Assembly (NCBI RefSeq): GCF_014267175.1
Contig: NZ_JACMTR010000002.1
Coordinates: 756,001 to 820,000, forward strand
DNA: 64,000 bases
Origin: Pseudonocardia sp. C8
GTDB taxonomy: Bacteria; Actinomycetota; Actinomycetes; Mycobacteriales; Pseudonocardiaceae
Direction of reading: 5' to 3'
Below the pieces are notes generated by a model, which was not told the DNA's origin, searched no databases, and worked only from the letters and a program-made list of their open reading frames with translations. Shown piece after piece: positions 40,702-55,114 of this stretch. A program made the position numbers and the translations under genes. Every line of letters starts with the position of its first letter. Position 1 is the stretch's first letter.

Positions 40702-40715
40702 CCTGGGAGCTCCGA

Positions 40716-40742
40716 CCGGGGGTGGGCAACACCCACCCCCGG
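40716..40742. terminator. hairpin between convergent monooxygenase and Fis-type regulator
   Basis: Perfect 11-bp stem with loop CAACA, 15 nt after the monooxygenase stop and 45 nt from the end of the convergent gene. Confidence 0.75.
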
Positions 40743-40786
40743 ATCCCTGGTGCCAGCCGTTGGTCCGCGTCCGCCAGGGATCGATC

Positions 40787-41854
40787 TCAGCCCAGGCCGT
40801 ATCGACGCAGTCTCTGGTAGAGCGTGGCGCGAGAGATTCCCAGCTCTGCGGCTGCGGCCTTCTTGTTGTTCCCGTTGGCGACCAACACGTCGGCAATGAC
40901 CTGGCGCTCCGCTCGCTCCAGCGGAGTCAATCTGTTCTCGAGATCTAGTTGGGGTGCGGCAGGGGTATTACCGGAAACGGAGGCCGGCCGCCGGTGGAGG
41001 ACGAGGACGGCTCCGTCGGCCAGGGTGTGGTCGGTGACGGGGTAGACGGTTCCGATGTACTCGCTGGTCACGGAGACGGAGGCGCCGGAGGGGCCGGCAG
41101 CGAGCACGGCGTCCCAGAGCGCTGGTCGGTCGAGTTCGAGAGCTGCTGCAGCGTCGTTGACGATCAGTGTGTGGCGGTCGAGAGCGATGACCGGAGCGTG
41201 GGCGGCGTGGCGAAAGCGGGTGTGGGCGTCGACGAGTCTGTGCTCACGGGTTGTCGCGGTGTCCCGGAGTGCGCTGCGGATGCCGTCGCCGAGGGAGCGG
41301 AGTACGACGAGGAGCAGATGGTTGGCGTCCTCGGCCCGGCAGGCGACGTTGACGGCCCCGCAGATGCGCCGGGTGACCGGGTGTACGACCGGTGTTGCGG
41401 CGCAGGCCCACTGGTGCCACGGCTCCTTGTAGTGTTCGGCACCGATGACGGTGACCGCACGCCGCTCAGCGACCGCAATGCCGATGCCGTTGGTTCCGGC
41501 GGCGAGCTCGTCCAGGGATGACCCGATCTCGACCTCGGTTCGGTCGAGTTGACGAGCGATCGTGGGTTCAGACTCCCAGCGCCATGTCACGACCCCGGTG
41601 GGATCGGTCAGGGCCAGGGACGTGGACGTGCCGACAAGGAGATCCGCCATGTTCAGCAGGACTGGAGCTCCGACCCGGACGAACGCCGAGTCGGTGTCGA
41701 TCTGTTCGCGCGAGATCGACAGTTCGTGCGGGTCCACGCCGCTGAAGCGCGAACGCCGCCAGGACTCGAGGATCTCGGGACGGACCTTGTCCACTCCCTC
41801 CTGCGGGGAACCGTCGGCCAGATGGAACATCTCCCACGGATGCGTGGACGGCAT
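40787..41854 (-). CDS. GAF-domain regulator with Fis-type helix-turn-helix, no AAA+ domain
   Basis: A 355-residue protein. The N-terminus (VRPEILESWRRSRFSGVDP) and GAF-like region (GTNGIGIAVAERRAVTVIGAEHYKEPWHQWACAATPVV) match the sensor part of AcoR/MimR-type activators. The C-terminus ERQVIADVLVANGNNKKAAAAELGISRATLYQRLRRYGL is the Fis HTH. The sigma-54 AAA+ domain between them is absent, as in many actinobacterial members, so it must act with an ordinary sigma factor. It is divergent to the cupin dioxygenase gene and probably controls it. RBS GGAGG lies 5 nt before the ATG. Confidence 0.87.
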   Translation of the reverse strand: MPSTHPWEMFHLADGSPQEGVDKVRPEILESWRRSRFSGVDPHELSISREQIDTDSAFVRVGAPVLLNMADLLVGTSTSLALTDPTGVVTWRWESEPTIARQLDRTEVEIGSSLDELAAGTNGIGIAVAERRAVTVIGAEHYKEPWHQWACAATPVVHPVTRRICGAVNVACRAEDANHLLLVVLRSLGDGIRSALRDTATTREHRLVDAHTRFRHAAHAPVIALDRHTLIVNDAAAALELDRPALWDAVLAAGPSGASVSVTSEYIGTVYPVTDHTLADGAVLVLHRRPASVSGNTPAAPQLDLENRLTPLERAERQVIADVLVANGNNKKAAAAELGISRATLYQRLRRYGLG

Positions 41855-41916
41855 CGGGACCTCCTCTCCTGAGCCTCGGTCCAGTATCGGACCTGTAGTG
41901 GGCTGCGCAGGGCCGG

Positions 41917-41935
41917 CGTGTTCAAGTTCTGGACA
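41917..41935. promoter_or_regulatory. imperfect dyad between Fis-type regulator and cupin gene
   Basis: GTGTTCA and TGGACAC (one mismatch) with a 5-nt centre in the 159-bp divergent gap; a good size for a Fis-type HTH dimer. Confidence 0.4.
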
Positions 41936-42013
41936 CCGACCTTGTTCGTGTCGGCGGTCACGCCGGAGCGTAGTGGTCGTTCACGGACGAACGGCCCCTG
42001 CGAAGGAGTGACA

Positions 42014-42535
42014 GTGACGGCGACGATGCCCCCCACCACGGCCGAGGACAACATGAGCGAGCTCGATCGGGCCGAGCTCGCGGTGGTCGACCAGTACGCG
42101 GCGGAGGACCGCTACATCTCCGGCGACGAGCTTCCCTGGTTCCCGTGGGTTGGACCGATCGAGATCAAGGTTGTCCGTGCCGACAACCGCACCGGGCAGT
42201 ACGTGCTCGGGCTGCGTTCTTCGGAAGAGGCGGTGCTGGGCAAGCACCGCCACCGTGGGGTCGTGTCCGCGGTGACGGTGAGCGGGGCGTGGGAGTACTT
42301 CGAGTACGACTGGGTCGCGCGGCCTGGCGATTACGTCCGGGAGAACCCTGGCACGATCCACACCCTGCACATCTTCGAGAACACCGAGATCGTGTTCACC
42401 GTCGACGGGACCATCGAGTTCCTCAACGACGACAACACACTGAACAACACGATGGACGTGTGGAGCTTCGTGCACCTGTACCTGGAGCACTGCAAGACCC
42501 AGGGACTCGACGTCAACGAGCGGATCTTCTTCTGA
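42014..42535 (+). CDS. cupin dioxygenase of the 2,4'-dihydroxyacetophenone dioxygenase type
   Basis: A 173-residue single-domain cupin. Metal-binding motif 1 is seen in LGKHRHRGVVSAVTVSGAWEYFEY, motif 2 in GTIHTLHIFENTEIVFTVDG. Sequence and length are like the family of acetylacetone-cleaving or 2,4'-dihydroxyacetophenone dioxygenases, Fe(II) enzymes that cut a C-C bond next to a carbonyl. It may prepare or finish the substrate of module A. GTG at 42014 has AAGGAG 5 nt upstream; GTG 42008 and ATG 42026 are alternatives. Confidence 0.8.
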   Translation: MTATMPPTTAEDNMSELDRAELAVVDQYAAEDRYISGDELPWFPWVGPIEIKVVRADNRTGQYVLGLRSSEEAVLGKHRHRGVVSAVTVSGAWEYFEYDWVARPGDYVRENPGTIHTLHIFENTEIVFTVDGTIEFLNDDNTLNNTMDVWSFVHLYLEHCKTQGLDVNERIFF

Positions 42536-42544
42536 GTTCAGCCA

Positions 42545-42581
42545 CCGACGGGCCCCGTGACTGGTTCGCGGGGCCCGTCGG
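42545..42581. terminator. terminator between convergent cupin and membrane-protein genes
   Basis: Perfect 13-bp stem (CCGACGGGCCCCG and complement) with an 11-nt loop, 9 nt after the cupin stop. Confidence 0.85.
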
Positions 42582-42660
42582 CGCTTCGTGGCGGTCGCTC
42601 CCGGGATCCGGTGATTTCACCGGCCGGTGCGGTCCGTCGTGCGACCCTCTGTTCCTGCGG

Positions 42661-43740
42661 TCACGGCGTGACGGCGGCACTCTCGTGAATCTCGTCCGTC
42701 CGTTGCGCAGTGGTCTCATATCGGCGCAGCTTCCGGTGCACCAGCAACGCGTAGAGCACGCTCACCGCGATGATCAGGGTCGGGACGACGAACTGATCCT
42801 TGAACGCGCCCACCGCCGTCAAACCGACGTTGACGACGACGGAGCCGACGAAGATGATCGCGGCCGGCGGATCGACGTATCCGTGCCCGAAGGTGTTGAA
42901 CGTGCGCGACAGGAATTCGCCACCGACTGCGCCGACGATACCGAAAGCCAGCCCCCAGAGGATGCTGACACTGGTCGGATACACGGCGTGGCTTTGCACC
43001 ACTGCAATCGCCCCGACCATTCCGACGTGATGGGTGACGGGGATCTTCAGCCCCGAGATGAAGAAGAAGAACGACACGACTCCGATCGCCCAGGCGGGGA
43101 TGATCGCGAGGCTCTCCGTTGCCGGGTTCTGGAGCAGGATCCATGCGATCCAACCGCCGAGCCCGCCGACCACCAGGCCGATCGTGACGAGCATCGGTGC
43201 GGTCGCCTGCCAGGGGAGCCAGACGACCGGATTGCGGCAGTCGTAGCGGCCACCGGCTGCCGCGACCTGGGGCGGTACTGTGCCGATGATCTCCCGCATT
43301 CCACGCCTGCCGAAGAGCTTTGCCGCGATGCACAGCACGACCACGGTGAGTGCAATGGTGTCGATGGAATCGCCGAACACCCGTGACAGTCCGGTCTGCA
43401 TCACGTATCCGACGGACCCGAACACGCCGCCGACGAGGAGCGGCGTCACGCGTTGGGTACTGATCAGGGGAGTGAGGATGTCCTTTCCGTCCTCGGCAAG
43501 GTAGCGTTTGCGGCCCGCGTACGCCGCCGCGACGATGGCAGGGGCGAACGAGACGTGCGGGCCCAGGTACAGCCCGAACGCGTACACCCCCAGGAAGTCG
43601 ACATGGCCCGCTCCAGGGGCTACGAGGAGCGCGACGAATGCTGCCAGACCGGTCAGCGTAACCGCGCCTACCGCGCCCAGAGCAGCTCCGAAGGCACCGG
43701 CGCAGAACGCCACCACGATGCCGATTACCAGGGTCTCCAT
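42661..43740 (-). CDS. integral membrane protein of unknown function, candidate transporter
   Basis: A 359-residue protein with about nine or ten hydrophobic segments, beginning METLVIGIVVAFCAGAFGAALGAVGAV. It has a positively charged cytoplasmic C-terminus (LLVHRKLRRYETTAQRTDE) and a Cys in GGRYDCRNPVVWLPW. I do not recognise the family. Position matters: it is the last gene of an operon after a DeoC-like aldolase, an SDR and an FGGY kinase, 45 nt after the kinase, and no other transporter is in the module. It may therefore import the sugar or polyol substrate. Confidence 0.75.
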   Translation of the reverse strand: METLVIGIVVAFCAGAFGAALGAVGAVTLTGLAAFVALLVAPGAGHVDFLGVYAFGLYLGPHVSFAPAIVAAAYAGRKRYLAEDGKDILTPLISTQRVTPLLVGGVFGSVGYVMQTGLSRVFGDSIDTIALTVVVLCIAAKLFGRRGMREIIGTVPPQVAAAGGRYDCRNPVVWLPWQATAPMLVTIGLVVGGLGGWIAWILLQNPATESLAIIPAWAIGVVSFFFFISGLKIPVTHHVGMVGAIAVVQSHAVYPTSVSILWGLAFGIVGAVGGEFLSRTFNTFGHGYVDPPAAIIFVGSVVVNVGLTAVGAFKDQFVVPTLIIAVSVLYALLVHRKLRRYETTAQRTDEIHESAAVTP

Positions 43741-43785
43741 TGTTTCCGCCTTTGTTGGTCGGAGGGCTGCCGCCGGCGAGGCCGG

Positions 43786-45348
43786 TCAGAATCCCTGCAC
43801 CTTGGAGATGGCCGGGTACACCTCGCCGCTCAACGCGTGGTAGGTGCCGTCGAAGATCTGGTACATGTCGTCGTACAGCCGCACGTTCTTGTCGATCGGC
43901 TCCCACCGGCCCGTCACGTGGACCATCGACTCGACGGCCTCGTTCAGGTCGGCGAACAGACCCACGCCGACGGCGCCGATCATCGCGGCGCCGAGTGCGG
44001 TGGCTTCGGGGACCCGGACCGTCTCGACCGGTCGGCCGTAGATGTCGGCCGCCATCTGGTTCCACATGGGTGAGCGAGCCGCTCCACCCGAGACGCGGTA
44101 GAGCTCGAAGGGCGGAAGATCGACCTTCCCGAGCGCCTCGAGCATGGCGCGCATCTCGTAGCAGACACCTTCCATCGCGGCGCGTACGATGTCGTTCTTG
44201 CTGTGGCCGAGCGTCAGGCCGACGAAGGCCCCTCGGGCGTCGGCGTTGTAGTGGGGGCAGGCGGCTCCGGCGAGCCAGGGAACGAAGACCAGGCCCTGGG
44301 CCCCGGCGGGGGAGCGCTCGGCCTGCTTGGTGAGCAGGTCGTAGCAGTCGATGCCGGTGAGAGTCTGGGTGCTCATCTCGAGCTGGCCAAAGGTGCTGCG
44401 CACCCATTTGAAGCTGCTGGCCGCGGCGCTGGCGTGCCCCTCGATCTCCCACTTGTGCAGCGCCGAGCCGATGACGTGGGCTCGGCGGTTGGGGTCTCGG
44501 ACGGGCTTGCTCGACTGCGCGACGACGACGCCGGCGGTGCCGAGGACGATCGAGGCCATCCCCTCGGCGATGTTGCCCAGCCCGACTGCTGCGCTCTGGT
44601 GGTCGCCGCTTCCGACGATCAGCGGTGTTCCCTCGGCGAGGCCGGTTCGATCGCTGACGGCGCGGGTCACCTTACCGATGTTCGTGCCGGACGGCACGTT
44701 CCGAGAGTACTTCTCGGCGTCCACTCCGAACACTTTCGCGAGTTCGTGGTCGTATTCGAAAGTGTCCGCGTCGACAATCTGCCACCAGCCGGCGTCGTCG
44801 GTGTCATCCACGTAGCCCTCTGCCCCGAAAGCCTCCATCACGAGCGCGTGGATGCTGTGGATGGCCGCGGTGCGGTCGTACTGATCGGGATGATGCTTCT
44901 TGACCCAGTAGATCTTCGACGAGGGCCAGACCTGCCCGAGGGGAAAGCCCGTGCGATCGTAGAGATCGTCCGCGGTCATCCCGTGCGCGGCCAGTTGCTG
45001 ATCCATCCACGGCAGCATCTCGGCATTCCGCAGGTCCTGCCACATGATGATGTCGCGGACGAACCCACCTTTGGCGTCTCGCATGACGAAACTCGACCGC
45101 ATCATGGTGAAGCAGACCGAGGCGATTTCGTGGGCATCGATACCGCTGCGGCCGAGAGCGTCTCGAACCGAGTCGTAGCAGTTGTCGATGATCGCCTGGG
45201 GGGAGCACTCCACCCATCCGGCCTGGGGGTAGCTCAGGGGGTTCTCTCGGTATCCTGCCGCAATTTCGTTCCCTGAGAGGTCGAAGATGACGGCACGGCA
45301 CCCGGTGGTTCCGGCGTCGATTCCTACAACGAACTTCTGAGCGTCCAC
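43786..45348 (-). CDS. FGGY-family carbohydrate kinase
   Basis: A 520-residue sugar kinase: ATP/phosphate motif VVGIDAGTTGCRAVIFDLSG at residues 6-25, IMWQDLRN with the catalytic Asp region, GSGDHQSAAVGLGNIAEGM and RVSGGAARSPMWNQMAADIYGRPVETV near the C-terminus. It resembles xylulokinase-like members, but the substrate may be another ketose, polyol or aldonate. GTG at 45348 has AAGGAGG at 7 nt; the frame is open upstream but non-homologous. It should yield the phosphate cleaved by one of the nearby aldolases. Confidence 0.9.
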   Translation of the reverse strand: MDAQKFVVGIDAGTTGCRAVIFDLSGNEIAAGYRENPLSYPQAGWVECSPQAIIDNCYDSVRDALGRSGIDAHEIASVCFTMMRSSFVMRDAKGGFVRDIIMWQDLRNAEMLPWMDQQLAAHGMTADDLYDRTGFPLGQVWPSSKIYWVKKHHPDQYDRTAAIHSIHALVMEAFGAEGYVDDTDDAGWWQIVDADTFEYDHELAKVFGVDAEKYSRNVPSGTNIGKVTRAVSDRTGLAEGTPLIVGSGDHQSAAVGLGNIAEGMASIVLGTAGVVVAQSSKPVRDPNRRAHVIGSALHKWEIEGHASAAASSFKWVRSTFGQLEMSTQTLTGIDCYDLLTKQAERSPAGAQGLVFVPWLAGAACPHYNADARGAFVGLTLGHSKNDIVRAAMEGVCYEMRAMLEALGKVDLPPFELYRVSGGAARSPMWNQMAADIYGRPVETVRVPEATALGAAMIGAVGVGLFADLNEAVESMVHVTGRWEPIDKNVRLYDDMYQIFDGTYHALSGEVYPAISKVQGF

Positions 45349-45445
45349 TGTTATTCCTCCTTGAATACAGCAGATCAGTGGCGACGTAGATCGCGCGAAA
45401 GCCCCTGATCGGGGCGACCCTGGAGTCGAAAAGTGTGGCGAGTCC

Positions 45446-46210
45446 TCAGTTTCCGTACATGTACCGGCCGCCGGTGACATCGACAGTGATACCGGTGATG
45501 TAGCGGCTCTCGTCCGACACCAGGAACAGCGCGACGCCTGCCGTGTCCTCCGGGGTGCCGATGCGACCCATCGGAACACCGCTGACCTGCTGGGCCCGGG
45601 TGGCAGCGGTGTGCTCGCCCTGGTCGGTCAACGGGGTCTCGGTGACACCGGGACAGATCGCGTTGACCCGGATCCCGTCTTTGACGAAGTAGCCGGCGGC
45701 ATACTTGGTGAGGCCGATGAGACCGGCTTTGGACGCGACGTAATGGGGGCCCGCCCAGCTGCCGCCGCTCTTGCCGGAGGTCGAGGAGATCTGCACGATC
45801 CGGCCTCCGGTGCGGCTCATGTACGGGTGGACCGCGCGCAGGCAGCGGAACGCGCCGGTCAGGTTGATGTTCATGACGAAGTTCCACTCCTCGTCGCTGC
45901 ACTCCGGCAGCTGGGAGAAGCGGGTCACGGCTGCACCATTCACCAGGACGGTGATCTTCCCTGTGCGGTCGAAGACCTCGGCAAACGCTCGATCGACCGA
46001 CGCCGCGTCGCCGATGTCGATGTGTACCCCGAATGCCTTCCCGCCGGCTTCGGTGATCTCGTCGACGGTGCGGGTGCAGCCCGTGTCGTCCAGGTCGGCA
46101 CAGGCGACGACCGCGCCATGCCGGGCGAGCTCGATGGCTATGGCCCGGTCGATGCCCGATGCGGCGCCCGTCACGACAGCAACGTCACCGGTGAGCCTGT
46201 CACTCTTCAT
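45446..46210 (-). CDS. short-chain dehydrogenase/reductase with altered glycine motif
   Basis: A 254-residue SDR: catalytic Ser in VQISSTSGKSGG and YxxxK in HYVASKAGL; NNAG is present as NGAA (VLVNGAAVTRFS). The cofactor motif, normally TGxxxGIG, reads TGAASGID, with Asp21 in place of the third Gly. ADLDD after the second strand suggests NAD. It probably oxidises a polyol or hydroxy acid to the ketone taken by the kinase. RBS GAGGAGG. The gene lies between deoC-like and kinase genes. Confidence 0.88.
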   Translation of the reverse strand: MKSDRLTGDVAVVTGAASGIDRAIAIELARHGAVVACADLDDTGCTRTVDEITEAGGKAFGVHIDIGDAASVDRAFAEVFDRTGKITVLVNGAAVTRFSQLPECSDEEWNFVMNINLTGAFRCLRAVHPYMSRTGGRIVQISSTSGKSGGSWAGPHYVASKAGLIGLTKYAAGYFVKDGIRVNAICPGVTETPLTDQGEHTAATRAQQVSGVPMGRIGTPEDTAGVALFLVSDESRYITGITVDVTGGRYMYGN

Positions 46211-46240
46211 CAGTCGGCCTCCTCATTCCCGCCTGGACGC

Positions 46241-46972
46241 TCATCGGGACGGCTGGAACTCGATCTGTGAGAAGATCTCCTCGAACAGCGGCAGCTCACG
46301 GATGATCTGGTCTCCGGCCCGGGTTCCAACGATATCGGCCCCGGCTGCCACACAACCGAGGGCGACCGCCGTGGTCCAGAACCGACCGGTGCCAGCGAGC
46401 TTGATCTTGACGTCACTGCCGTCCAGGGTGTCGCGCATCAGTTTCATGACCGACATGTCGGGCCCGCCCTCGCGGCCGGTGGACGTCTTCACGTAGTCGC
46501 CGCCGCCTTCGGCGACGGCGTTGCACGCGGCGACGATCTCGTCGCGGTTGAGATAGGACACCTCGACGATGAACCGGGTCTCGCGGCCTTCTGCGGCCTT
46601 CACCAGATCGCTGACCTCGCTGGCGACCTTGTCGTAGTCGCCGTTCTTGAGCGCACCGAACTCGACCACGGGGTCGATCAGCTGGGCGCCCCGGCGGACC
46701 GCGTCCTCCACTGCGGCGATCTTCGTGGCGCGAGCGCTCGTGCCGAACGGGTAGTCGGTGACGACGTTGGGCTTGACGTCGGTGCCCTCGAGCTCCTTGA
46801 CGATGTAGTCGAGGTAGTTGGGGTTCACGCAGCAGGCATTGACGTCGTGCTCGCGGCACACGCCGACGAGCTCGTCGATGGAGGCCAGAGCGGTGTCTGG
46901 ATGGACGAGCGAGATGTCCAGCATCTTCGCGAACGAGCGAGCGGTGATCTCGCGGCCTCGGATCACGATCAT
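46241..46972 (-). CDS. deoxyribose-phosphate aldolase-like class I aldolase (DeoC/LacD barrel)
   Basis: A 243-residue DeoC-type barrel: ARSFAKMLDISLVHPDTALASIDELV, CCVNPNYLDYI, VVTDYPFGTSARATKIAAVEDAVRRGAQLIDPVVEFGALKNGDYD and the Schiff-base Lys in GGDYVKTSTGREGG. The catalytic set is intact. DeoC splits 2-deoxyribose 5-phosphate, but in this setting it may cleave another phosphorylated sugar acid or deoxy sugar. It is first in a four-gene operon. GAAGGAG lies 8 nt before ATG 46972, and a CCGGTATATACCGG palindrome lies 48 nt upstream. Confidence 0.88.
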   Translation of the reverse strand: MIVIRGREITARSFAKMLDISLVHPDTALASIDELVGVCREHDVNACCVNPNYLDYIVKELEGTDVKPNVVTDYPFGTSARATKIAAVEDAVRRGAQLIDPVVEFGALKNGDYDKVASEVSDLVKAAEGRETRFIVEVSYLNRDEIVAACNAVAEGGGDYVKTSTGREGGPDMSVMKLMRDTLDGSDVKIKLAGTGRFWTTAVALGCVAAGADIVGTRAGDQIIRELPLFEEIFSQIEFQPSR

Positions 46973-47308
46973 GGTGTGGGCTCCTTCGAGGGCGACAGTG
47001 ACCGTACCAGCTTGACAGCTCCGGTATATACCGGTCCAGGTGGCTGTGGACGCTACTGGCCGAGGTGGCACACGTCAACGATCAACTTCTAGTGCGTCTC
47101 GGGCGGCAGCCACGGGGTGCGAAGCGTTGATGGTTCGACGAGTCTGCCCTGGTCAGGGCTTCGAGCGGGCGCCAGACGAGGCTGGCGCGGCACTCCTCGG
47201 GCTCTCGCAGCTTGACGGACGCTGAACTGCAGCCTACCGTACCGGTATATACCGGCTGCCCACTGGGTCTGCCGCTTTCAGGTTAGCTCGGCGTACGAAC
47301 GGTGGCGA
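46973..47308. promoter_or_regulatory. divergent control region with two identical palindromes
   Basis: CCGGTATATACCGG occurs at 47021-47034 and again at 47242-47255, one near each divergent start (deoC-like and transaldolase-like). A TACGGT -10 candidate for the minus operon lies between the first site and its gene. No ORF in this 336-bp stretch looks real. The sites probably bind the GntR/UTRA protein encoded at 49955-50725. Confidence 0.75.
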
Positions 47309-48667
47309 ATGATGGTGCACGTCAACTACAGGTCGGCAGGCGAAGGCGCCGCCGGTGTTCACTTCACCCTGGGTGCGCTCGGGAAGTCGCCCGCGCGGGG
47401 CCACGAGAGCGACGTTCGGCGCGTCGCGGGGCTCACCATCGGCCGGGCGGACTTCGAGACGTTGTCCGCCGCTGCCTGCGCCGTCGGGGTGACCGACCGG
47501 TTCCGGGACGTGATCAGGACATTCGGTCGTGACCACGCCGGGATCCCGGCCGGGTTTCGGGTGGAGACCTCGCTCGCCGAGGACGGTCTTCTCTCGGTCG
47601 ACCTCGTACGCGATATCGGGTACGACCGCGACGGAGTCAAGCGGCCGAGTGGGATGCTGTTCTCGGCCGACTCCGCGAATCCCTACGAGATCGAGCCCGT
47701 CGCCGGCGTCCTGGCCAACCTCACCTGTAACCCGGGCATCGTCTACGACCTGTTCCTCAACGATCCGGCAGCCAACGTCGGTCAGAAGTTCGGGAGCCTG
47801 GAAGAGGTGATGCAGGAGATCGGGGCCCTGCTGGGGCCGGGCTGCGACATCAGCGTCGAGATCGAGGACCCGTTCGCCGAACTCGACGTGATTCTCGACC
47901 AGATGGCACGGTATCGGGAGATCCTCTCGGAGTATCGGCTCGTCGTGAAGGTGCCCCACACCGGCCCGGTCAACGGCGGCAACGCCACCGAACTGTTGCA
48001 CGGGGACCGCCGGCTGCGCGCTCACTTCGCCCGCCCGTCCGTCGAGGACGCGTTCCGGTCGCACACGCTGGCGCTCGCCCTCCGCGAGCACGGATACCGG
48101 GTCAACTACACGTTGATGTTCGAACCCCATCAGACCGCGCTGGCGCTGCAGGCCAAGCCGTACTTCATCAACAGCTTCGTCCGGCACCGGCTCGGCGAGT
48201 CGCGGTGGATCGCGCATGCGGTCGAGGCGTACCGGACGACACGCGACGTGCGTCACCTCGAGGCGCTGCGGTCCTACCTCGTCGACCACGATCATCTCTC
48301 CTCCACGGAGGCGGACACGGATCTGATCGAGGTGCTGGAGTACGCCGAGGATCTCGTCGCCTATCGACGGATCGAAGACCCGGAGGGACACGACGGCCTC
48401 GACGGTGTCCGCCACAACCTGCGGCTGTTGAAGGCGACCAACCTCCCCGACACCCGCCTCATCGTCTGCAGCATGGAGGGCCGCAACTACCGCGACCTCG
48501 ACAAGCTGGCCACGGAACCCGAGTTCGCCGACGTGGTCGACCGGCTGGTCGTCACCGCCGAGCCTGCCTATCTGGCGCGCTTCACCTCTGCCAGCCAGGT
48601 CGTGAGCTACCAGCGCCGCTTCCTGAACGCGGTACCGAGTTCCGGAACGCTCCTCGACTCAGCATGA
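47309..48667 (+). CDS. transaldolase-like protein with extra C-terminal domain
   Basis: A 452-residue protein that I do not recognise as a named family. The central part has transaldolase features: CNPGIVYDLFLND (second strand of the barrel), DISVEIEDP, YRLVVKVPHTGPVNGG with a Lys at the Schiff-base position, and GYRVNYTLMFEPHQTALALQAKPYFINSFVRHRLGE, like the NVTLLFS...ISPFVGR segment of transaldolases. The first 95 residues and a charged tail (residues about 345-452) are additional. It may exchange or cleave a ketose phosphate. It starts an operon with an old yellow enzyme. The start (ATG 47309, also ATG 47312) has only a weak ribosome site. Confidence 0.7.
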   Translation: MMVHVNYRSAGEGAAGVHFTLGALGKSPARGHESDVRRVAGLTIGRADFETLSAAACAVGVTDRFRDVIRTFGRDHAGIPAGFRVETSLAEDGLLSVDLVRDIGYDRDGVKRPSGMLFSADSANPYEIEPVAGVLANLTCNPGIVYDLFLNDPAANVGQKFGSLEEVMQEIGALLGPGCDISVEIEDPFAELDVILDQMARYREILSEYRLVVKVPHTGPVNGGNATELLHGDRRLRAHFARPSVEDAFRSHTLALALREHGYRVNYTLMFEPHQTALALQAKPYFINSFVRHRLGESRWIAHAVEAYRTTRDVRHLEALRSYLVDHDHLSSTEADTDLIEVLEYAEDLVAYRRIEDPEGHDGLDGVRHNLRLLKATNLPDTRLIVCSMEGRNYRDLDKLATEPEFADVVDRLVVTAEPAYLARFTSASQVVSYQRRFLNAVPSSGTLLDSA

Positions 48668-48711
48668 CGGTTTCGTGCCTGCCCTGACCATCCGACCGGA
48701 AGACTGATGAC

Positions 48712-49809
48712 ATGCCTCTGCTGTTCGAACCGTTCCGCCTTCGCGACGTGTCCTTCCCCAACCGCATCTGGCTTTCCCCGATGTGCCAGTACTCCTGTGA
48801 GGCCCAGGACGGCATGCCGCACGACTGGCATCTGGCGCATCTCGGCGCCCGCGCCCAGGGCGGATTCGGCCTGGTCATGTCCGAGGCCGTCGCCGTGACG
48901 GCGCAAGGCCGTATCACTGCCCAGGATGCCGGGTTGTGGTCGGACGAACAGGCCGAGGCGTGGACCCGGATCGTCGACTTCGTGCACGCGCAGGGAGCGA
49001 GGTTCGGTTTCCAGATCTCACACGCCGGGCGCAAGGCATCCACCTATCGTGGATTTCCCGGGGAGCCGAAGGGCGCGGTCCCCGCGACCGCGGACGGATG
49101 GACCACGGTGGCACCGTCGGCGATCCCGCATCACGGCAATCCGCCGCCCAAGCCGCTGACCCACGATGAGATGGACGAGGTGCGTGATGCGTTCGTCGCG
49201 GCGGCGCACCGGGCCGATCGGACCGGCGCCGACGTGCTGGAGATCCACGCCGCTCACGGCTACCTCCTCCACGAGTTCCTCTCACCGATCGCGAACGACC
49301 GAGACGACGACTATGGCGGATCCTTCGAAGGGCGAATCCGGTTTCCCCTGCAGGTGGTCGACGCCGTGCGTGCAGCGTGGCCGCAGGGCAAGCCCTTGTT
49401 CGTGCGTGTGTCGGCGACCGACTGGATCCCCGGTGGCTGGGACCTCGAGCAGACCAGCCGCCTCGCCGGGTTGCTGAAGGCCCGGGGCGTCGACCTGATC
49501 GACGTCTCCAGCGGCAGCATCGGGCCGGCCGACATTCCAGTCGGACGCAACTACCAGGTGCCGTTGTCCGCACGTATCCGCGCGGACAACGGCATCCCCA
49601 CCGCGGCGGTCGGCCTGATCCTCGAACCCAAACAGGCCGAGAACCTCCTGGAAGCCGGCGACGCCGACGCGGTGTTCCTGGCCCGCGTCGCATTGCGGGA
49701 GTCGGCCTGGCCGCTGCGCGCGGCCTGGGAACTTGGTCTGAGCTGGGAAGACGCCCCGTACCCCGGACAGTACGTCCGGGGCCGCTGGGATGCGGTCCCT
49801 CGAGACTGA
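48712..49809 (+). CDS. old yellow enzyme, YqjM-like NADH:flavin oxidoreductase
   Basis: A 365-residue FMN barrel: LSPMCQYSCEAQDGMPHDWHL carries the redox-tuning Cys of thermophilic-like OYEs, HAGRKAST the FMN site, EIHAAHGYLLHEFLSPIANDRDDDYGGSFEGRIRFPL the catalytic and substrate region, and VGLILEPKQAENLLEAGDADAVFLARVALRE the phosphate site. It reduces alpha,beta-unsaturated carbonyls with NAD(P)H. It lies 44 nt after the transaldolase-like gene. In a sugar pathway such an enzyme could reduce a dehydrated keto intermediate; this is only inference. Confidence 0.93.
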   Translation: MPLLFEPFRLRDVSFPNRIWLSPMCQYSCEAQDGMPHDWHLAHLGARAQGGFGLVMSEAVAVTAQGRITAQDAGLWSDEQAEAWTRIVDFVHAQGARFGFQISHAGRKASTYRGFPGEPKGAVPATADGWTTVAPSAIPHHGNPPPKPLTHDEMDEVRDAFVAAAHRADRTGADVLEIHAAHGYLLHEFLSPIANDRDDDYGGSFEGRIRFPLQVVDAVRAAWPQGKPLFVRVSATDWIPGGWDLEQTSRLAGLLKARGVDLIDVSSGSIGPADIPVGRNYQVPLSARIRADNGIPTAAVGLILEPKQAENLLEAGDADAVFLARVALRESAWPLRAAWELGLSWEDAPYPGQYVRGRWDAVPRD

Positions 49810-49829
49810 CCGACCGCCACCGTCCCCTG

Positions 49830-49869
49830 AGCCCCGGTGTGCGCGAACGCTGACGCGCGCACCGGGGCT
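49830..49869 (+). terminator. terminator after OYE gene
   Basis: 16-bp stem with one G-U pair and an 8-nt loop, 20 nt after the stop codon. Confidence 0.8.
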
Positions 49870-49893
49870 TCGCACTGCCATCGGCATGGCTGA

Positions 49894-49922
49894 TACTCTG
49901 TACCTGTACCTGTACATACCTG
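49894..49922 (+). promoter_or_regulatory. promoter and repeat operator of the GntR/UTRA gene
   Basis: TACTCT (49894-49899) is a candidate -10. It is followed by tandem TGTACC, TGTACC, TGTACA (49899-49916), including the dyad TGTAC-CT-GTACA, then TACCTG. The sites overlie the likely transcription start, consistent with autoregulation. Confidence 0.55.
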
Positions 49923-49954
49923 TTGCCGACATCGGTCGGCCGTGATCGGTCCTG

Positions 49955-50725
49955 GTGAGGTGGATGCTCGACCGTCATAGCCCCACGCCGCTCCATGTCC
50001 AGCTCGAAGAGGCCATCAAGGATCGCATCGCGAACGAGGAGTGGCGCCCCAACTCGCAGATCCCGTCCGAAAACGAGCTCAGCGGGACCTACGGGCTCAG
50101 CCGCATGACCACGCGCGGCGTCATCACCCGGCTCGCCCACCAGGGCCTCGTCTATCGGGTACCGGGCAAGGGAACGTTCGTGGCGGAACCGAAGGTCGCC
50201 AACCGGCCACATCTGCCGATCGGAATCCAAGGCCAGCTCGACGAGCTCGGCATCGAGAGCCGGATCATCCTCGTCGGCGCTTCGCAGCAGGAGGCATCGG
50301 CACGGCTGCGCAAGCAGCTGGACCTCGCCGAGGGGCAACGGGTGCACAGGATCGAGCGGCTCCGCACCATGAACGGTGCGCCGCTGAGCATCCACCTGTC
50401 GTTCGTCCCGGTCGAGCGGTGCCCGGACCTCGACACGAAGGACCTCGAGAGTGGTCAGCTGCGCCGCATCCTGGAGGAGAGCTACGGTCTCCGTCCGGCT
50501 CGTGTGGTGGAGTCGGTGGAAACGGCGCTGGCCAGCGAACGTGACGCGCAGCTACTGCAGGTGAAGACCGGGTTCACCCTGCTGCAACTGCAGGAGACGA
50601 ACTACACCGAGGTGGGGAATCCGTTCGAGTTCTGCCATGTCTTGTTCCGCGGGGACAAGATGAAGATCACGTTCGAGTTCCACAACCCGACGCCGAAGGC
50701 GGCCGGGGGCCCGCGAGCCACGTGA
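49955..50725 (+). CDS. GntR-family regulator, HutC/UTRA subgroup
   Basis: A 256-residue protein: winged helix at about residues 5-75 (PLHVQLEEAIKDRIANEEWRPNSQIPSENELSGTYGLSRMTTRGVITRLAHQGLVYRVPGKGTFVA) and a UTRA ligand domain (residues 90-245) with RIERLRTMNGAPLSIHLSFVP and VETALASERDAQLLQV. It is the only regulator inside module B and presumably controls both divergent operons; the effector would be a phosphorylated sugar. GTG 49955 and ATG 49964 are both possible starts; neither has a strong ribosome site. Confidence 0.88.
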   Translation: MRWMLDRHSPTPLHVQLEEAIKDRIANEEWRPNSQIPSENELSGTYGLSRMTTRGVITRLAHQGLVYRVPGKGTFVAEPKVANRPHLPIGIQGQLDELGIESRIILVGASQQEASARLRKQLDLAEGQRVHRIERLRTMNGAPLSIHLSFVPVERCPDLDTKDLESGQLRRILEESYGLRPARVVESVETALASERDAQLLQVKTGFTLLQLQETNYTEVGNPFEFCHVLFRGDKMKITFEFHNPTPKAAGGPRAT

Positions 50726-50749
50726 CGGGCGCAGGCCGGTCTCGCGTCA

Positions 50750-51520
50750 CTACGCGAACAGGGTCTTCTCCAAGGTTGCCAGGTCGACGACGCCGTCGCT
50801 GTTGCGCACGTCGGTGCCGCTGACGAGCCGTGCCGGGGCGCCCACGTCGCCCAGATCGGAGAGCACGGCGCTGGCCGCGGGGAACGTATCGTCGACGGTG
50901 AAGTGGCTCAGGGTGACCACGTGGCGAGTGCCGGACCGGGCGGCGGCCGTCGCGCCGGCTCCGGAGTCCTCGATGATGACCGAATCCTCGGGGGACCTGC
51001 CGAGTTCTCGTAGCGCGAGCTCGTAGATGTCCGGAGCAGGCTTCTTGGCGGCGACGACGTCGCCTGCGAAGATTCCGGCCATCCGGGCTCGCAGTCTCGG
51101 TCCGACGACGGCGCCCAGTACCGCCTCGACACTGGCCGGGGCCGACGTCGACGCCACGGCCACCTGCCAGCCGGTGTCCAGCGCCTCGGCGATCAGTCGT
51201 CGAACCCCGGGCCGGGCGGGAAGCGCACCGTGTCGGACGCGTTGGACGTACAGTTCGCTCTTGAGCCTGTGCACCCGCCCGATCAGCCCCTGGCGGTCGC
51301 CGTCGGACGCAGGAGCTTCGTCCGGATGGGCATTCAAGAATGCCGCGAGCCGCTCTTTGCCGCCACCCACGGCCAGCAGTGAGTGGTACTGCTCAGGGGT
51401 CCAGTGAAGAGTGAGGCCAAGCTTCTCGAACGCCTCGTTGAACGCGGGAAGGTGTCCCTCGAGCTCGGTGTCGGCCAGTACACCGTCACAGTCCAGGAGG
51501 AGAGCACGTGGGTGCTTCAT
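50750..51520 (-). CDS. HAD-superfamily phosphatase, CbbY/beta-phosphoglucomutase-like
   Basis: A 256-residue HAD protein: motif I LLLDCDGVLADTE (nucleophile Asp in DCDGV), motif II ASTSAP, motif III Lys in AAKKPAPDIYELAL and motif IV VIIEDSGAGATAAARSG. A helical C1 cap lies between motifs I and II (LPAFNEAFEKLGLTLHW). It hydrolyses a small phosphorylated sugar. ATG at 51520 overlaps the stop of the upstream class II aldolase gene (ATGA), so the two are coupled and the aldolase product is a likely substrate. Confidence 0.9.
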   Translation of the reverse strand: MKHPRALLLDCDGVLADTELEGHLPAFNEAFEKLGLTLHWTPEQYHSLLAVGGGKERLAAFLNAHPDEAPASDGDRQGLIGRVHRLKSELYVQRVRHGALPARPGVRRLIAEALDTGWQVAVASTSAPASVEAVLGAVVGPRLRARMAGIFAGDVVAAKKPAPDIYELALRELGRSPEDSVIIEDSGAGATAAARSGTRHVVTLSHFTVDDTFPAASAVLSDLGDVGAPARLVSGTDVRNSDGVVDLATLEKTLFA

Positions 51521-52392
51521 GCGGCGCTCCAGTGCTGGTCGGCTCCATGTCCGCCGAACACTCCGATGTGCCATCCGACGACCGCGGTGACGGCTTCGGC
51601 CACCTGATCGAACAGGGCCGTGGGTTCCCACCTGCGCCGACGTTCGGCCTCCTCGAGGTGCTCGCGGGCAGCGTTCATGTAGGCGTGCTTGAGCGCCGTC
51701 GAGATATTGATCTTGGAGATGCCGGCCTCGACGAACCGGCGGAAGTCCCGGTCGGACAGGCCCGTCCCGCCGTGCAGGACCACGGGCCGATCGGTCAGTG
51801 AGACGAGCTTCGCGACCCGGTCGAACCGTAGCTGCGGTGCTGCGGAGTACATGCCGTGAGCCGTCCCGACCTGTGGTGCGATCATGTCAGCGCCGCTGAC
51901 CCGCGCAGCCTCCGCGAGTTCTTCCTCGGTGTACGAGTGCAGAGCCTCGTCGGACCCGATGCCGTCCTCGACCCCGATGATGTTCTCGATCTCCGATTCG
52001 ACGGTCACGCCGTGAACGTGCGCCTCCCGGACCACCTCGCCGGTCTGACCGACGGCCTCGTCGAAAGGGAGCGCTGACGCGTCGAAGAGCACCGAGCTCC
52101 ACCCGTGTGTGACGACCTCGCTGATCAGCGCCCGGTCGGGGCAATGGTCGAGATGCAGCGCGACCGGCACCGAGGCCCCTGTGGCAATCGTGCGCAGCAT
52201 GCTCGACATGAGCGACACCCCGGCACGGCGGAGGGTTTTCACCGAGGTCTGCAGGATGATCGGCGACTCTGCCTGCTCGGCGGCGAATACCGCTGCCCGC
52301 GCCGACAGGTCGTCGACGACGTTGACAGCGGCCACGGCGAAGCCCTCCCGACGAGCGACCGTGGTCAGGTCAAGTGTGTTGACGAGTGACAT
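51517..52392 (-). CDS. class II fructose/tagatose-bisphosphate aldolase family protein (GatY/KbaY-like)
   Basis: A 291-residue barrel: AVNVVDDLSARAAVFAAEQAESPIILQTS, zinc-site VALHLDHCPD (His-x-x-His-like HLDHC), SVLFDAS, VTVESEIENIIGVEDG, MIAPQVGTAHGMY, VLHGGTGLSD (zinc His and GGTG phosphate loop) and KINISTAL. It splits a ketose phosphate to dihydroxyacetone phosphate and an aldehyde. It is in a two-gene operon with a HAD phosphatase on the strand opposite to the UTRA regulator. A TATATA-containing dyad (52422-52441) lies at its promoter. Confidence 0.9.
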   Translation of the reverse strand: MSLVNTLDLTTVARREGFAVAAVNVVDDLSARAAVFAAEQAESPIILQTSVKTLRRAGVSLMSSMLRTIATGASVPVALHLDHCPDRALISEVVTHGWSSVLFDASALPFDEAVGQTGEVVREAHVHGVTVESEIENIIGVEDGIGSDEALHSYTEEELAEAARVSGADMIAPQVGTAHGMYSAAPQLRFDRVAKLVSLTDRPVVLHGGTGLSDRDFRRFVEAGISKINISTALKHAYMNAAREHLEEAERRRRWEPTALFDQVAEAVTAVVGWHIGVFGGHGADQHWSAA

Positions 52393-52421
52393 CCCGTTTC
52401 CCTTCGTCCGACGGGAGCACT

Positions 52422-52441
52422 GTACTTGTATATATCAGTAC
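52422..52441. promoter_or_regulatory. dyad at the class II aldolase promoter
   Basis: GTACT and AGTAC ends around an A/T-rich centre containing TATATA. The TATATA core and GTAC half-sites recall the palindromes at 47021 and 47242 and the TGTAC repeats at 49899, so it may belong to the same regulon. Confidence 0.45.
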
Positions 52442-52561
52442 TGCCAAGCGCTGTCTGGGTAGGGCCGGCCGACCTGCCGGCGAGATCGACGGTGACGGAT
52501 GCGGGGATCGGCTTCCCGTCGCGCAGAACCGGTGGTGGGAGGGCTCAGCTGGGCCGGCAGC

Positions 52562-52918
52562 TCACTCCGTCGAGGCGGGAAAGCGATGGATGTTCTCCTC
52601 GACCCAGCGACGCAGTCCCAACAGCGGGAGGTTGGCGTCGCGCCCCAGTCGGGTCAGGGAGTACTCGACCCGTGGTGGCACCTCGGCGAACACCTCCCGT
52701 TCGATCAAGGCGTGCTGTTCGAGTCGGCGAAGCGTCTGCGTGAGGACCTTGGGGCTCACGCCTTCCAGGCGCGCGCGGAGGGAGCCGAATCGCTGTGGTC
52801 CGTCCTCGAGGGCGCCGAGGATCATCGCGCTCCACTTGTTCGCCAGGAGGTCGAGCATGTCGCGGCAGGGACAGGCTGCTGCGTAGACGTCGTGTGCAGG
52901 GGAATCGGAGATGGGCAC
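52562..52918 (-). CDS. HxlR-family transcriptional regulator
   Basis: A 118-residue winged helix of the HxlR type: CPCRDMLDLLANKWSAMILGAL (with the N-terminal Cys pair region often used as a thiol sensor), PQRFGSLRARLEGVSPKVLTQTLRRLEQHALIEREVF and VEYSLTRLGRDA. GTG at 52918 is chosen because TATCAT (reverse strand, 52925-52930) ends 6 nt before it, so the mRNA is leaderless, and because an upstream start would put a 27-bp operator inside the gene. It is divergent to a zinc-free MDR oxidoreductase and probably senses electrophiles or quinones. Confidence 0.85.
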   Translation of the reverse strand: MPISDSPAHDVYAAACPCRDMLDLLANKWSAMILGALEDGPQRFGSLRARLEGVSPKVLTQTLRRLEQHALIEREVFAEVPPRVEYSLTRLGRDANLPLLGLRRWVEENIHRFPASTE

Positions 52919-52943
52919 TTCCCAATGATACCCATTGGGAAGT
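52917..52943. promoter_or_regulatory. HxlR operator covering the -10 box
   Basis: ACTTCCCAATG and CATTGGGAAGT are perfect 11-bp arms around ATACC. The site includes the regulator's own -10 and start codon and lies 46 nt from the divergent start, so it can control both genes. Confidence 0.75.
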
Positions 52944-52988
52944 TGTCGCCGTTGCAGGTAACTGGGACTGCATCGATACCGTCGGGTC

Positions 52989-54002
52989 ATGCCCATCCCA
53001 CCGACCATGGCAGCGGTCGCCTACCGCCGGCCGTTACCGATCACCGAGCCGGCCGCACTGGAGGACGTCACGCTGCCGACGCCCACGCCGGGCCCTCATG
53101 ACCTGCTCGTGGATGTTCGAGCAGTGTCCGTGAACCCGGTCGACACCAAGCAACGGCGCGGCACCGACCCGAACGGCGAGCCGAAGGTCCTCGGCTACGA
53201 CGCTGCCGGTGTCGTGGTCGGGGTCGGCAGTGAGGTGTCGATGTTCGAGGTCGGCGCCGATGTCTACTATGCGGGGTCGATCGCACGGCAGGGGACCAAC
53301 GCCGAGTACCACGTGGTCGACGAGCGGATCGTGGGGCCGAAGCCGGTCTCGCTGAGCTTCTCGGAGGCTGCAGCTCTGCCACTGACGACCATCACCGCGT
53401 GGGAAACCCTTTTTGACCGTCTGCGCCTCGGTACCGACGACACGGGGACGATGCTCGTGCCGAGCGCGGCGGGTGGCGTGGGCTCGATGATCCTCCAGCT
53501 GGGCCGCGTGCTGACCGGCCTCGAGTTCGTGGGGACGGCCTCGCGGGAGGAGTCCCGGGCGTGGGCGGCAGAGCTCGGTGCCCACCATGTGATCGGCCAC
53601 GACGACCTGCCGTCCTCGATCGATCGGATCACCGGATCGGGCCTGGACTACATCTTCTCTCCACGCACCGCAGGAATGATCCCTACCTACGCCGAGATCC
53701 TCCGGCCAGGAGGGGCGATCGTCGCCGTCGACGAGCCCGAGGGGCTCGACATCCTGCCGCTGAAGGCGAAGAGCATCACATTCCACTGGGAGATGATGTT
53801 CACTCGTCCGCTGTTCCAGACCAACGACATGATCAATCAGCACCACCTCCTTGCCCGCGTCGCCACCCTGGTCGACGAGGGAAAGCTGAAGTCGACCATG
53901 ACCACAGAGCTGTCCGGCCTGGACGCCGGAAGCGTTCGCCGGGCGCACGAGATGATCGAAGACGGTCACATGGTCGGAAAGGTCGTCATCGGCCGCGCCT
54001 GA
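52989..54002 (+). CDS. zinc-binding-type alcohol dehydrogenase family / quinone oxidoreductase (MDR)
   Basis: A 337-residue MDR protein: GroES-like N-terminal domain (HDLLVDVRAVSVNPVDTKQR, LGYDAAGVVVGVGSEV) and Rossmann domain with SAAGGVGSMILQLGR. It lacks the structural zinc Cys cluster, as in quinone oxidoreductases. It probably uses NADPH to reduce quinones or enals, which fits control by an HxlR sensor. The ATG lies 6 nt after TACCGT (52977-52982), so it is probably leaderless. Confidence 0.88.
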   Translation: MPIPPTMAAVAYRRPLPITEPAALEDVTLPTPTPGPHDLLVDVRAVSVNPVDTKQRRGTDPNGEPKVLGYDAAGVVVGVGSEVSMFEVGADVYYAGSIARQGTNAEYHVVDERIVGPKPVSLSFSEAAALPLTTITAWETLFDRLRLGTDDTGTMLVPSAAGGVGSMILQLGRVLTGLEFVGTASREESRAWAAELGAHHVIGHDDLPSSIDRITGSGLDYIFSPRTAGMIPTYAEILRPGGAIVAVDEPEGLDILPLKAKSITFHWEMMFTRPLFQTNDMINQHHLLARVATLVDEGKLKSTMTTELSGLDAGSVRRAHEMIEDGHMVGKVVIGRA

Positions 54003-54127
54003 CCGGTTCGCGCGACATCCCGCGCATGCCCCAGCACAGGTGGCCCCTGGGACGGTTCCTCCACTGCAAGGCACGCCACCATGCCGAGCCACGAACTTCA
54101 GCACGCCACGAAGATTGGTGATCCTCC

Positions 54128-55114
54128 ATGGCCAAGACCGTCCGATTCCACCAGATCGGCGGACCCGAGGTGCTCGTTCTCGACGACGTCGACATCCCCG
54201 AGCCCGGGCCCGGCGAAGTGCGCATCCGGGCCCGAGCACTCGGCGTCAACCGCGCCGAGGCGATGTTCCGCAGCGGCGCGTACGTCCACGACCCCGTACT
54301 GCCGGCCGGGATCGGCTACGAAGTCGCGGGGGAGGTCGATGCCGTCGGTGCCGGGGTCGACCTCGCGAACGGAACCCCGGTCAGCGTCGTCCCGGCGTTC
54401 GGGATGAACGACTACCCGGTACACGGCGAACTCGTGATCGCACCCGCTCACGCGGTCGTCCAGCACCCCGAGAACCTGACCTGGACCGATGCCGCCGCGG
54501 TCTGGATGCCGTTCGTCACCGCCTACGGCGGGCTCATCGCCCGTGCCGGCCTCACCCGCGGCGACACCGTCCTGATCACTGCTGCATCCAGCAGCGTCGG
54601 TCTGGCCGCGATCCAGATCGCGAACATGATCGGCGCTCGTCCCGTTGCGCTCACCCGCTCGTCGCGTAAGCAGCAGGCCCTGCTCGACGCCGGCGCCGCC
54701 GAGGTCATCGCCACCTCCGAACAGGACACCGCGGCCGAGGTGCGCCGTCTCACCGGCGGGGCAGGCGCCAGGGTCGCCTTCGACCCGGTCGGCGGGCCGG
54801 GACTGGCCGACCTGACCGCCTCTCTCGCGCCGGAAGGAATTCTGATCGTCTACGGCGCACTCAGTGAGGAGACGACCCCGCTTCCGGTCATGGACGTGCT
54901 TGGCAAGCACCTGACCCTCCGGGGCTACGAGCTCTTCGAGATCACCACCGACCCCGAACAACTCTCCGAAGCAGTCGCGTTCGTCCGCGACGGCCTGCAG
55001 CGTGCAGCTCTCAAGCCGATGCTGGCGAAGGTCTTTCCCCTCGACCAGGTCGTCGAGGCCCACCAGTACATGGAGTCCAACGAGCAGTTCGGAAAAATCG
55101 TCATCACGGTCTGA
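54128..55114 (+). CDS. NADPH:quinone reductase-like MDR oxidoreductase
   Basis: A 328-residue MDR protein: VRFHQIGGPEVLVLDDVDIPEPGPGEVRIRARALGVNRAEAMFRSG, GYEVAGEVDAVGAGVD, and the cofactor motif TAASSSVGLAAIQIANM, where SSS replaces the usual SGG/GGV pattern. No zinc ligands are visible. It probably belongs with the preceding MDR gene, 125 nt upstream, but not necessarily in one operon. It is the last clear gene of the accessory region. Confidence 0.88.
   Translation: MAKTVRFHQIGGPEVLVLDDVDIPEPGPGEVRIRARALGVNRAEAMFRSGAYVHDPVLPAGIGYEVAGEVDAVGAGVDLANGTPVSVVPAFGMNDYPVHGELVIAPAHAVVQHPENLTWTDAAAVWMPFVTAYGGLIARAGLTRGDTVLITAASSSVGLAAIQIANMIGARPVALTRSSRKQQALLDAGAAEVIATSEQDTAAEVRRLTGGAGARVAFDPVGGPGLADLTASLAPEGILIVYGALSEETTPLPVMDVLGKHLTLRGYELFEITTDPEQLSEAVAFVRDGLQRAALKPMLAKVFPLDQVVEAHQYMESNEQFGKIVITV

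Follow-up and report, generated by a model that had tools for sequence, protein, structure and literature searches.

A recurring, apparently jointly controlled Pseudonocardia gene module with three carbon-bond enzymes, most likely for a short polyol

Operons for erythritol and threitol and for apiose combine uptake of a polyol or branched sugar with a kinase, a dehydrogenase and sugar phosphate enzymes. In the sulfo-TAL/TK sulfoquinovose clusters of anaerobes, transaldolase and split transketolase genes stand together (excerpt of PMC11659671). In plants and many autotrophic bacteria, CbbY enzymes are described as phosphatases specific for xylulose 1,5-bisphosphate, the plant enzymes having freed phosphate from ribulose 1,5-bisphosphate too (excerpt of PMC10212915). 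A new family of glycerol transporters was predicted by Anderson et al. (2011) for a haloarchaeal membrane protein encoded beside glycerol kinase, with bacterial homologues near glycerol or propanediol genes (excerpt of PMC3102087). Here we analyze a module of nine genes at positions 42661-52392 of a 64,000-nucleotide stretch of Pseudonocardia sp. C8 DNA, hereafter the window (contig NZ_JACMTR010000002.1, positions 756,001 to 820,000). The results describe a real and recurring gene set that appears to be jointly controlled, includes three carbon-bond enzymes and most likely serves the use of a short polyol, its activities being predicted from sequence.

Gene content and predicted control

The initial annotation of this DNA had named the genes of the module, and all of them proved to be present as intact protein open reading frames (ORFs), nine in number, with Pfam or NCBIfam support. 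On the minus strand lie the genes of a DUF7973 (PF25928) membrane protein (42661..43740, 359 aa), an FGGY carbohydrate kinase (43786..45348, about 520 aa, GTG start; Pfam and NCBIfam), an SDR oxidoreductase (45446..46210, 254 aa; Pfam and NCBIfam, matches to solved structures) and a DeoC-like class I aldolase of a clade that we call GTR (46241..46972, 243 aa; NCBIfam, alignments and tree). The gaps between them are 45, 97 and 30 bases, and the four genes probably form one transcription unit. The plus strand carries the genes of a transaldolase-like protein of a divergent TAL_FSA family (47309..48667, 452 aa; Pfam and motif alignment) and, 44 bases further on, of an old yellow enzyme (OYE) family flavoprotein (48712..49809, 365 aa), followed by a GntR/UTRA regulator gene (49955..50725, 256 aa), the last two assigned by Pfam and NCBIfam. 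Finally, a class II aldolase gene (51517..52392, 291 aa; Pfam and NCBIfam) and a gene for a CbbY-like HAD phosphatase (50750..51520, 256 aa; best solved match 4uav, 3.7e-54) overlap by 4 bases on the minus strand. The likely starts of the kinase and HAD genes are at about 45348 (the longest ORF runs from 45579) and about 51520. Pfam E-values were 4e-44 for FGGY_N, 4e-37 for FGGY_C, 2e-63 for the SDR, 1e-69 for Oxidored_FMN and 1.5e-74 for the class II aldolase. Two class I (lysine-type) enzymes and one class II aldolase, the combination that the initial annotation had singled out, are thus encoded together.

The interval between the DeoC-like and transaldolase-like genes contains two copies of a predicted operator-like sequence, CCGGTATATACCGG, one at 47021..47034, before the deoC operon and 48 bases from the deoC start, and the other at 47242..47255, 53 bases from where the transaldolase-like gene starts. 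The 6.24 Mb genome has the core of this sequence, GGTATATACC, in two places only, both of them in this interval, and GTATATAC is found twice in the window against 0.02 expected. A related palindrome, GTACTTGTATATATCAGTAC, predicted to be operator-like as well, lies at 52422..52441, 29 bases before the class II aldolase gene, and overlaps a weak promoter-like match (two such matches, 0.9 expected). Given the restriction of GGTATATACC to two module sites and the related palindrome before the class II aldolase gene, the nine genes look like one regulon under predicted operators. A further possible operator, GTACATAC (49912..49919), 35 bases before the GntR start, is weak, with one mismatch to the pattern GTMTAKAC. 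Scanning the window for this looser pattern gave two sites against 0.51 expected, a number reached in 6 of 100 shuffles, and a one-mismatch scan was uninformative; as these statistics are modest, the case for a regulon rests on the longer palindrome and its position.

GTMTAKAC was also searched for in 14 related loci, with intergenic sites in two of them. In the Pseudoramibacter alactolyticus locus (L009) it occurs three times within 21 kb against 0.24 expected, a count that not one of 100 shuffles reached, and the sites stand before a class II aldolase gene, a deoC and the transaldolase-like gene. In a Clostridiales metagenome-assembled genome (MAG; L015), a single site precedes gntR. GntR/UTRA relatives 41-43% identical to the window's regulator are encoded in three Bacillota loci. 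The UTRA domain had been taken as a sign of a phosphorylated-sugar effector, a conclusion that UTRA alone does not carry, as is generally known of the family.

Recurrence of the gene set

We compared the surroundings of 32 non-overlapping transaldolase-like loci outside the window, 13 from Actinomycetota, Bacillota and Synergistota and 19 more, labeling genes by their BLAST matches to proteins whose domain or annotation was known (for the Dak, Aldolase_II, transaldolase and dehydrogenase-complex labels, the reference proteins were identified by eye at first, an assignment that Pfam confirmed). Their partners were transketolase-type (19 loci), FGGY (18), DeoC (16), class II aldolase (at least 14, a count that misses at least L009 and a Georgenia locus, L008, both positive), second-type HAD (11), PHP (11), GntR/UTRA (10), Fe-dependent dehydrogenase (9), CbbY-like HAD (3), BMP (3), dihydroxyacetone (DHA) kinase-type (2), RpiB (2) and DeoB (2) genes. 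In several loci, the transketolase matches include the beta chain of a 2-oxoacid or acetoin dehydrogenase-type complex. DeoC, FGGY, GntR, class II aldolase and transaldolase-like genes recur together in Bacillota, where, in two loci with overlapping gene sets, the same operator motif is found between genes. Since the same genes recur together in Bacillota and GTATATAC is in excess in the window, we regard the grouping as beyond chance; the joint operator palindromes and the recurrence of many of the partners together in unrelated bacteria bear out the coherent module that had been proposed.

Among the loci compared, the kinase (50-52% identity) and DeoC (49%) most like those of the window come from two genomes of Pseudoramibacter's order, in loci adjoining a glycerol-dehydrogenase-type enzyme and an iron-dependent alcohol dehydrogenase whose type is unassigned. 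Iron-dependent dehydrogenases beside the Bacillota modules L009 and L159 pass the NCBIfam glycerol dehydrogenase cut-off. Georgenia (L008), a second actinobacterium (L148) and the Clostridiales MAG encode the pair of CbbY-like HAD and class II aldolase alongside the transaldolase-like protein, and the two actinobacterial loci hold the transaldolase-like, class II aldolase, CbbY-like HAD, Dak1 and Dak2 genes together. In addition, a contig of 101,335 bases in the transaldolase-like, DUF7973 and DeoC lists alike suggests another copy of the same module, the contigs being equated by that figure only. Searches with the DUF7973 protein in 200 genomes of the family and with the DeoC protein in 394 genomes of the class (E 1e-40) each matched a single genome, their own. 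Alignments matched 16 of 396 genomes of the phylum for DUF7973 and, for the transaldolase-like family, 2 of 346 of the phylum, 18 of 67 of Pseudoramibacter's order and 1 of 176 of the order of an Erysipelotrichaceae locus. With so few matches across the phylum, class and family samples, the module is rare and patchy in Actinomycetota.

Some loci show arrangements of their own. In L006, L010 and L015, BMP-type ABC transporter and amidohydrolase genes, joined in L006 and L010 by a Metalloenzyme-family gene, accompany a GTR-type DeoC and the transaldolase-like gene; the arrangement of all three loci looks as if meant for nucleoside breakdown. In L152, transketolase, transaldolase-like and class II aldolase genes lie beside an E1/E2/E3 dehydrogenase complex, a lipoate ligase and a GlpK-like FGGY kinase; L154, L155, L156, L158 and L160 resemble it by BLAST and length only.

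In the window, module G+C is 66.3% against 71.4% overall, which fits acquisition without proving it, and a low-G+C stretch (about 63-69%) at 38000-55000 of the 71% window contains the module. Inverted repeats with 16-nt arms mark the boundary between a cupin gene and the module (42545..42581, a possible shared terminator) and the space between the OYE and GntR genes (49830..49869, a possible terminator absent from the terminator-scan list). Genes for an AcoR-like regulator and this ChrR-type cupin (40787-42535) adjoin the module; an AcoR-like gene is also present, with one of the 2,4'-dihydroxyacetophenone dioxygenase family, in a DUF7973 locus on a Rhodococcus plasmid (L020). Elsewhere in the genome lie genes for a canonical transaldolase and another class II aldolase, and housekeeping is therefore probably not the task of the module copies.

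The carbon-bond enzymes and their partners

The DeoC-like protein passes the NCBIfam deoC model (TIGR00126; 136.6 bits, cut-off 117.3) and is likely to be an aldolase, since Lys162, Lys191 and Asp100, which we take to be the Schiff-base lysine, second lysine and aspartate of DERA, are invariant in all 23 rows of our alignment A3. The phosphate-binding loops GG and SS of DERA are replaced in the window clade by AGTG(R/K/Q)FWT and GTR, Arg following STG in all 16 window-clade rows of A3 and one further row, P0235, having Leu. Identity to the six classical DERA rows of A3 is 35-36%. Among the best 120 of 339 relatives, the closest in the protein database are up to 86% identical, 40 proteins stand at 44% or more, and the rest, with the exception of a single short fragment, share at most 39%. 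A tree with 86 rows (midpoint root only) separates 71 rows from 15 DERA-type rows with support 100/99. The larger side holds the window protein, its 37 nearest database rows, all 30 rows that 14 related loci contributed and another three rows from the database, the DeoC-bearing loci L162 and L165 having been left out, and the window protein falls in a subgroup of 39 rows, again with support 100/99. Arg follows the GT-type loop in 66 of the 71 rows, the other five, one subgroup, giving no motif match; the DERA-type rows have Ser in 13 cases and no motif match in 2 of 15. As both DERA loops are replaced, the substrate may be another phosphorylated compound than that of DERA, perhaps a shorter one. 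The clusters of L009, L150, L161 and L164 contain as many as four DeoC-like paralogues each, spread over separate subgroups of the tree.

The transaldolase-like protein matches TAL_FSA (PF00923) just over the cut-off (28.4 against 27 bits, 38 residues), its best solved match has an E-value of 0.01 only, and 1,717 relatives were found at E 0.001 among 7,998 scored. The motifs SADSANP, NLTCNP, S/C-V/I-E, VKVPH, NYTLMF and INSFVRHR occur in transaldolase order, and their D, N, E, K and final R are invariant in all 24 family rows; presumably, the Lys forms the Schiff base and the Asp, Asn and Glu have their transaldolase roles. The stretch with Glu and Lys gave a weak hhalign match to the genome's canonical transaldolase (P 0.0098, probability 4%). 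This Glu is a difference between transaldolase and fructose-6-phosphate aldolase, and its conservation suggests the chemistry of the former.

The HAD protein scores 187 bits against plant CbbY (4uav) and 148 bits against that of Rhodobacter (4uar), compared with at most 42 for beta-phosphoglucomutases, and it retains the DxDGxLxxTE, GGKER and KKPxPxIY stretches of CbbY. The SDR has the Tyr-x3-Lys motif and is probably an NAD-linked dehydrogenase of a polyol or hydroxy-aldehyde, a substrate and cofactor that we infer. Its sequence reads TGAASGID, with Asp as the third glycine of the usual SDR motif TGxxxGxG.

The membrane protein had been called unfamiliar. It had indeed no match in the Pfam copy scanned; a precomputed domain places it in PF25928, which all 100 listed proteins bear, and several relatives are named DUF7973. 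Of 25 DUF7973 loci, whose genes were labeled by BLAST in the same way, 18 have a gene for an FGGY kinase, a DHA kinase or propanediol use no more than 6 kb away (17 of 24 when two loci from one plasmid are merged; three loci scored as misses because the ORF was undetected). Five of the six plasmid records matching DUF7973 were examined. The Microbacterium gene comes after those for epoxide hydrolase, haloalcohol dehalogenase and glycerol kinase; the one in Enterococcus gilvus comes after those for an FGGY kinase and an FAD-binding oxidoreductase, and its set also includes genes for glycerol dehydrogenase and a glycerol-3-phosphate antiterminator; in Rubrobacter, the gene stands beside transketolase, HAD and FGGY genes. 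The Rhodococcus set can be read as one for 1,3-propanediol or 3-hydroxypropionate breakdown, and some loci contain RpiB, FGGY and Aldolase_II genes. Since DUF7973 is so often near FGGY-kinase, DHA-kinase and propanediol genes, the polyol half of the proposed "sugar or polyol pathway" is favored and the sugar half less so. Together with its hydrophobic segments, these neighbors lead us to predict a small-polyol permease, presumably of the glycerol transporter family of Anderson et al. (rrnAC0550), with which we equate it by context rather than by comparing sequences. The word DUF7973 was not found in the open-licence papers searched. Weak relatives, outside the 25-locus count, occur in 27 of 244 genomes of the order of the Erysipelotrichaceae locus; one of them (L112) lies beside genes for indole-glycerol phosphate synthase and a phosphoribosyltransferase-type protein.

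Predicted pathway, alternatives and known systems

Reading each reaction and the substrate from family membership and neighboring genes, we favor, with confidence that is evenly balanced, a catabolic regulon under GntR/UTRA control for a short polyol, most likely of C4-C5. DUF7973 would import the polyol, the FGGY kinase would phosphorylate and the SDR oxidize it, in either order, and the DeoC-like enzyme would split the product by a Schiff-base retro-aldol reaction into two short pieces, an aldehyde and an aldehyde phosphate. The class II aldolase would perform an aldol reaction with dihydroxyacetone phosphate (DHAP), the CbbY-like phosphatase would then irreversibly remove the C1 phosphate, and this pair and the transaldolase-like enzyme would move the phosphorylated piece into pentose and hexose phosphates. 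The product of a class II aldolase joining DHAP and glycolaldehyde phosphate is xylulose 1,5-bisphosphate, the substrate of CbbY and a known inhibitor of Rubisco. Because the product of the one enzyme would be the substrate of the other, the DeoC clade might cut a C4 polyol derivative into a C2 aldehyde and glycolaldehyde phosphate, the class II aldolase make xylulose 1,5-bisphosphate, and the CbbY-like phosphatase release xylulose 5-phosphate as the productive step. This C2-phosphate route is tentative and, on our estimate, unlikely; most Bacillota loci carry second-type HAD and PHP phosphatases instead, and the RuBisCO_large gene of this genome leaves some probability to a repair role of the HAD protein.

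Several observations weigh against the polyol regulon as a whole. No gene fixes the substrate, and no NCBIfam specificity model is passed by the FGGY kinase (XylB 285.8 of 380 bits, the best; GlpK 211.6 of 590; LsrK 220.4 of 528). DUF7973 is present in only 3 of the 32 transaldolase-like loci; 7 of the 25 DUF7973 loci, three of them those with the undetected ORF, lack the FGGY, DHA-kinase and propanediol genes within 6 kb, and a haloarchaeal plasmid locus, unannotated (L021), showed none of the genes looked for. GTMTAKAC is missing in 10 of the 14 loci scanned and intragenic only in 2. Moreover, a single bacterial order supplies 19 of the 32 loci, so that the partner counts overstate independence, and several contigs end inside the cluster. 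The OYE and SDR, which the initial annotation had counted among the module's parts, are encoded in the window and recur in 0 and 2 of the 32 loci, respectively; they are local additions.

The kinase scores could also be read in favor of a pentitol or pentose operon, in which the SDR makes a pentulose, the FGGY protein is a pentulose kinase, the other aldolases are pentose phosphate auxiliaries and the DeoC-like protein has a side activity. XylB is the kinase's best model, RpiB and transketolase genes stand in some related loci, and glucose/ribitol and sorbitol dehydrogenases are found among the solved SDR matches, together with many FabG. However, a side activity leaves unexplained why DeoC-like genes so often accompany the others, with as many as four in a cluster, the window module has no isomerase or transketolase gene, and the neighbors of DUF7973 favor smaller polyols, so that we consider this operon rather unlikely.

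Those neighbors, with their DHA kinase and glycerol dehydrogenase associations, fit glycerol or dihydroxyacetone assimilation, the kinase and SDR feeding trioses and the class II aldolase, phosphatase and transaldolase only building hexoses and pentoses. In loci of Pseudoramibacter's order, too, a GlpK-like FGGY kinase accompanies genes for a transketolase, a transaldolase-like protein and a class II aldolase. The window kinase, however, reads MRSS where the GlpK-like row shows QRET, whose Arg-Glu pair we presume to be functional, its score is far below the glycerol kinase cut-off, and the DeoC-like protein would have no role; glycerol as the substrate therefore seems quite improbable.

Deoxyribose or deoxynucleoside scavenging, with an FGGY protein phosphorylating 2-deoxyribose and an ordinary DERA, would account for a DeoC over its NCBIfam cut-off and for two Clostridiaceae loci in which the transaldolase-like gene and DeoC stand with Metalloenzyme-family, amidohydrolase and BMP-type transporter genes. 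We hold it to be very unlikely: Pfam and NCBIfam find no nucleoside genes among the module genes, the DeoC-like protein falls outside the DERA rows (100/99) with both phosphate loops replaced, and FGGY kinases of known function use ketoses, polyols and acids. Least probable is that the HAD protein is the genome's Rubisco repair phosphatase, in the module by accident: a RuBisCO_large gene does exist (461 bits, 4541039-4541962; a second match has 179 bits), 3.7 Mb from the HAD gene in contig coordinates and with no BLAST relative of this HAD seen in the surrounding 59 kb, but the HAD gene shares an overlap and an upstream operator-like site with the class II aldolase gene, and the pair, compared as a pairing alone, joins the transaldolase-like gene in Georgenia, the second actinobacterium and the Clostridiales MAG.

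If the polyol regulon is correct, it would hint at a function for three orphan groups, namely DUF7973, the 450-residue transaldolase family and the DeoC group split from DERA, would explain Bacillota and Actinomycetota gene clusters now seen as separate enzymes, and would add new class I aldolases with altered phosphate sites.

The neighborhood comparison suggested in the initial annotation showed recurring neighborhoods that resemble each other, and no described erythritol or deoxyribose operon matching them was found in the open-licence papers searched. Erythritol, deoxyribose, Lsr (AI-2), sulfoquinovose and glycerol systems were all considered, and none was matched by cut-off scores or in the papers searched, LsrK staying below its equivalog cut-off; nor did open-licence full texts yield a description of this module. 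We know of no DeoC-like or divergent transaldolase in the erythritol/threitol or apiose operons. The carbon sources of two Eubacteriaceae are given in the literature, none being singled out as the substrate in that excerpt (PMC12029686). The sulfo-TAL/TK clusters resemble the related loci in having transaldolase and transketolase genes together (excerpt of PMC11659671), but, compared by gene content, they differ from the window module, none of whose genes was assigned to sulfoquinovose breakdown by Pfam or NCBIfam. DUF7973 shares haloarchaeal members and bacterial glycerol or propanediol neighbors with the family of Anderson et al. (excerpt of PMC3102087), and differs in that its partner in the window is another FGGY kinase, in a context of aldolases. 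CbbY is the nearest solved relative of the window HAD, whose gene is paired with a class II aldolase in the proposed catabolic regulon, away from Rubisco. Placement among cbb genes is typical of CbbY in autotrophs without defining it, and we know of no earlier case of a CbbY-type phosphatase in catabolic use. DERA belongs to the same family as the window DeoC and aligns with it in two lysines and the aspartate, whereas the window protein stands in a separate group of the tree, with Arg for Ser. Finally, the transaldolase-like protein is like the transaldolase/FSA family in the order of its Lys, Asp, Asn and Glu motifs, and unlike it in length, the window family reaching about 450 aa through extensions of about 110 residues at the N-terminus and about 150 at the C-terminus.

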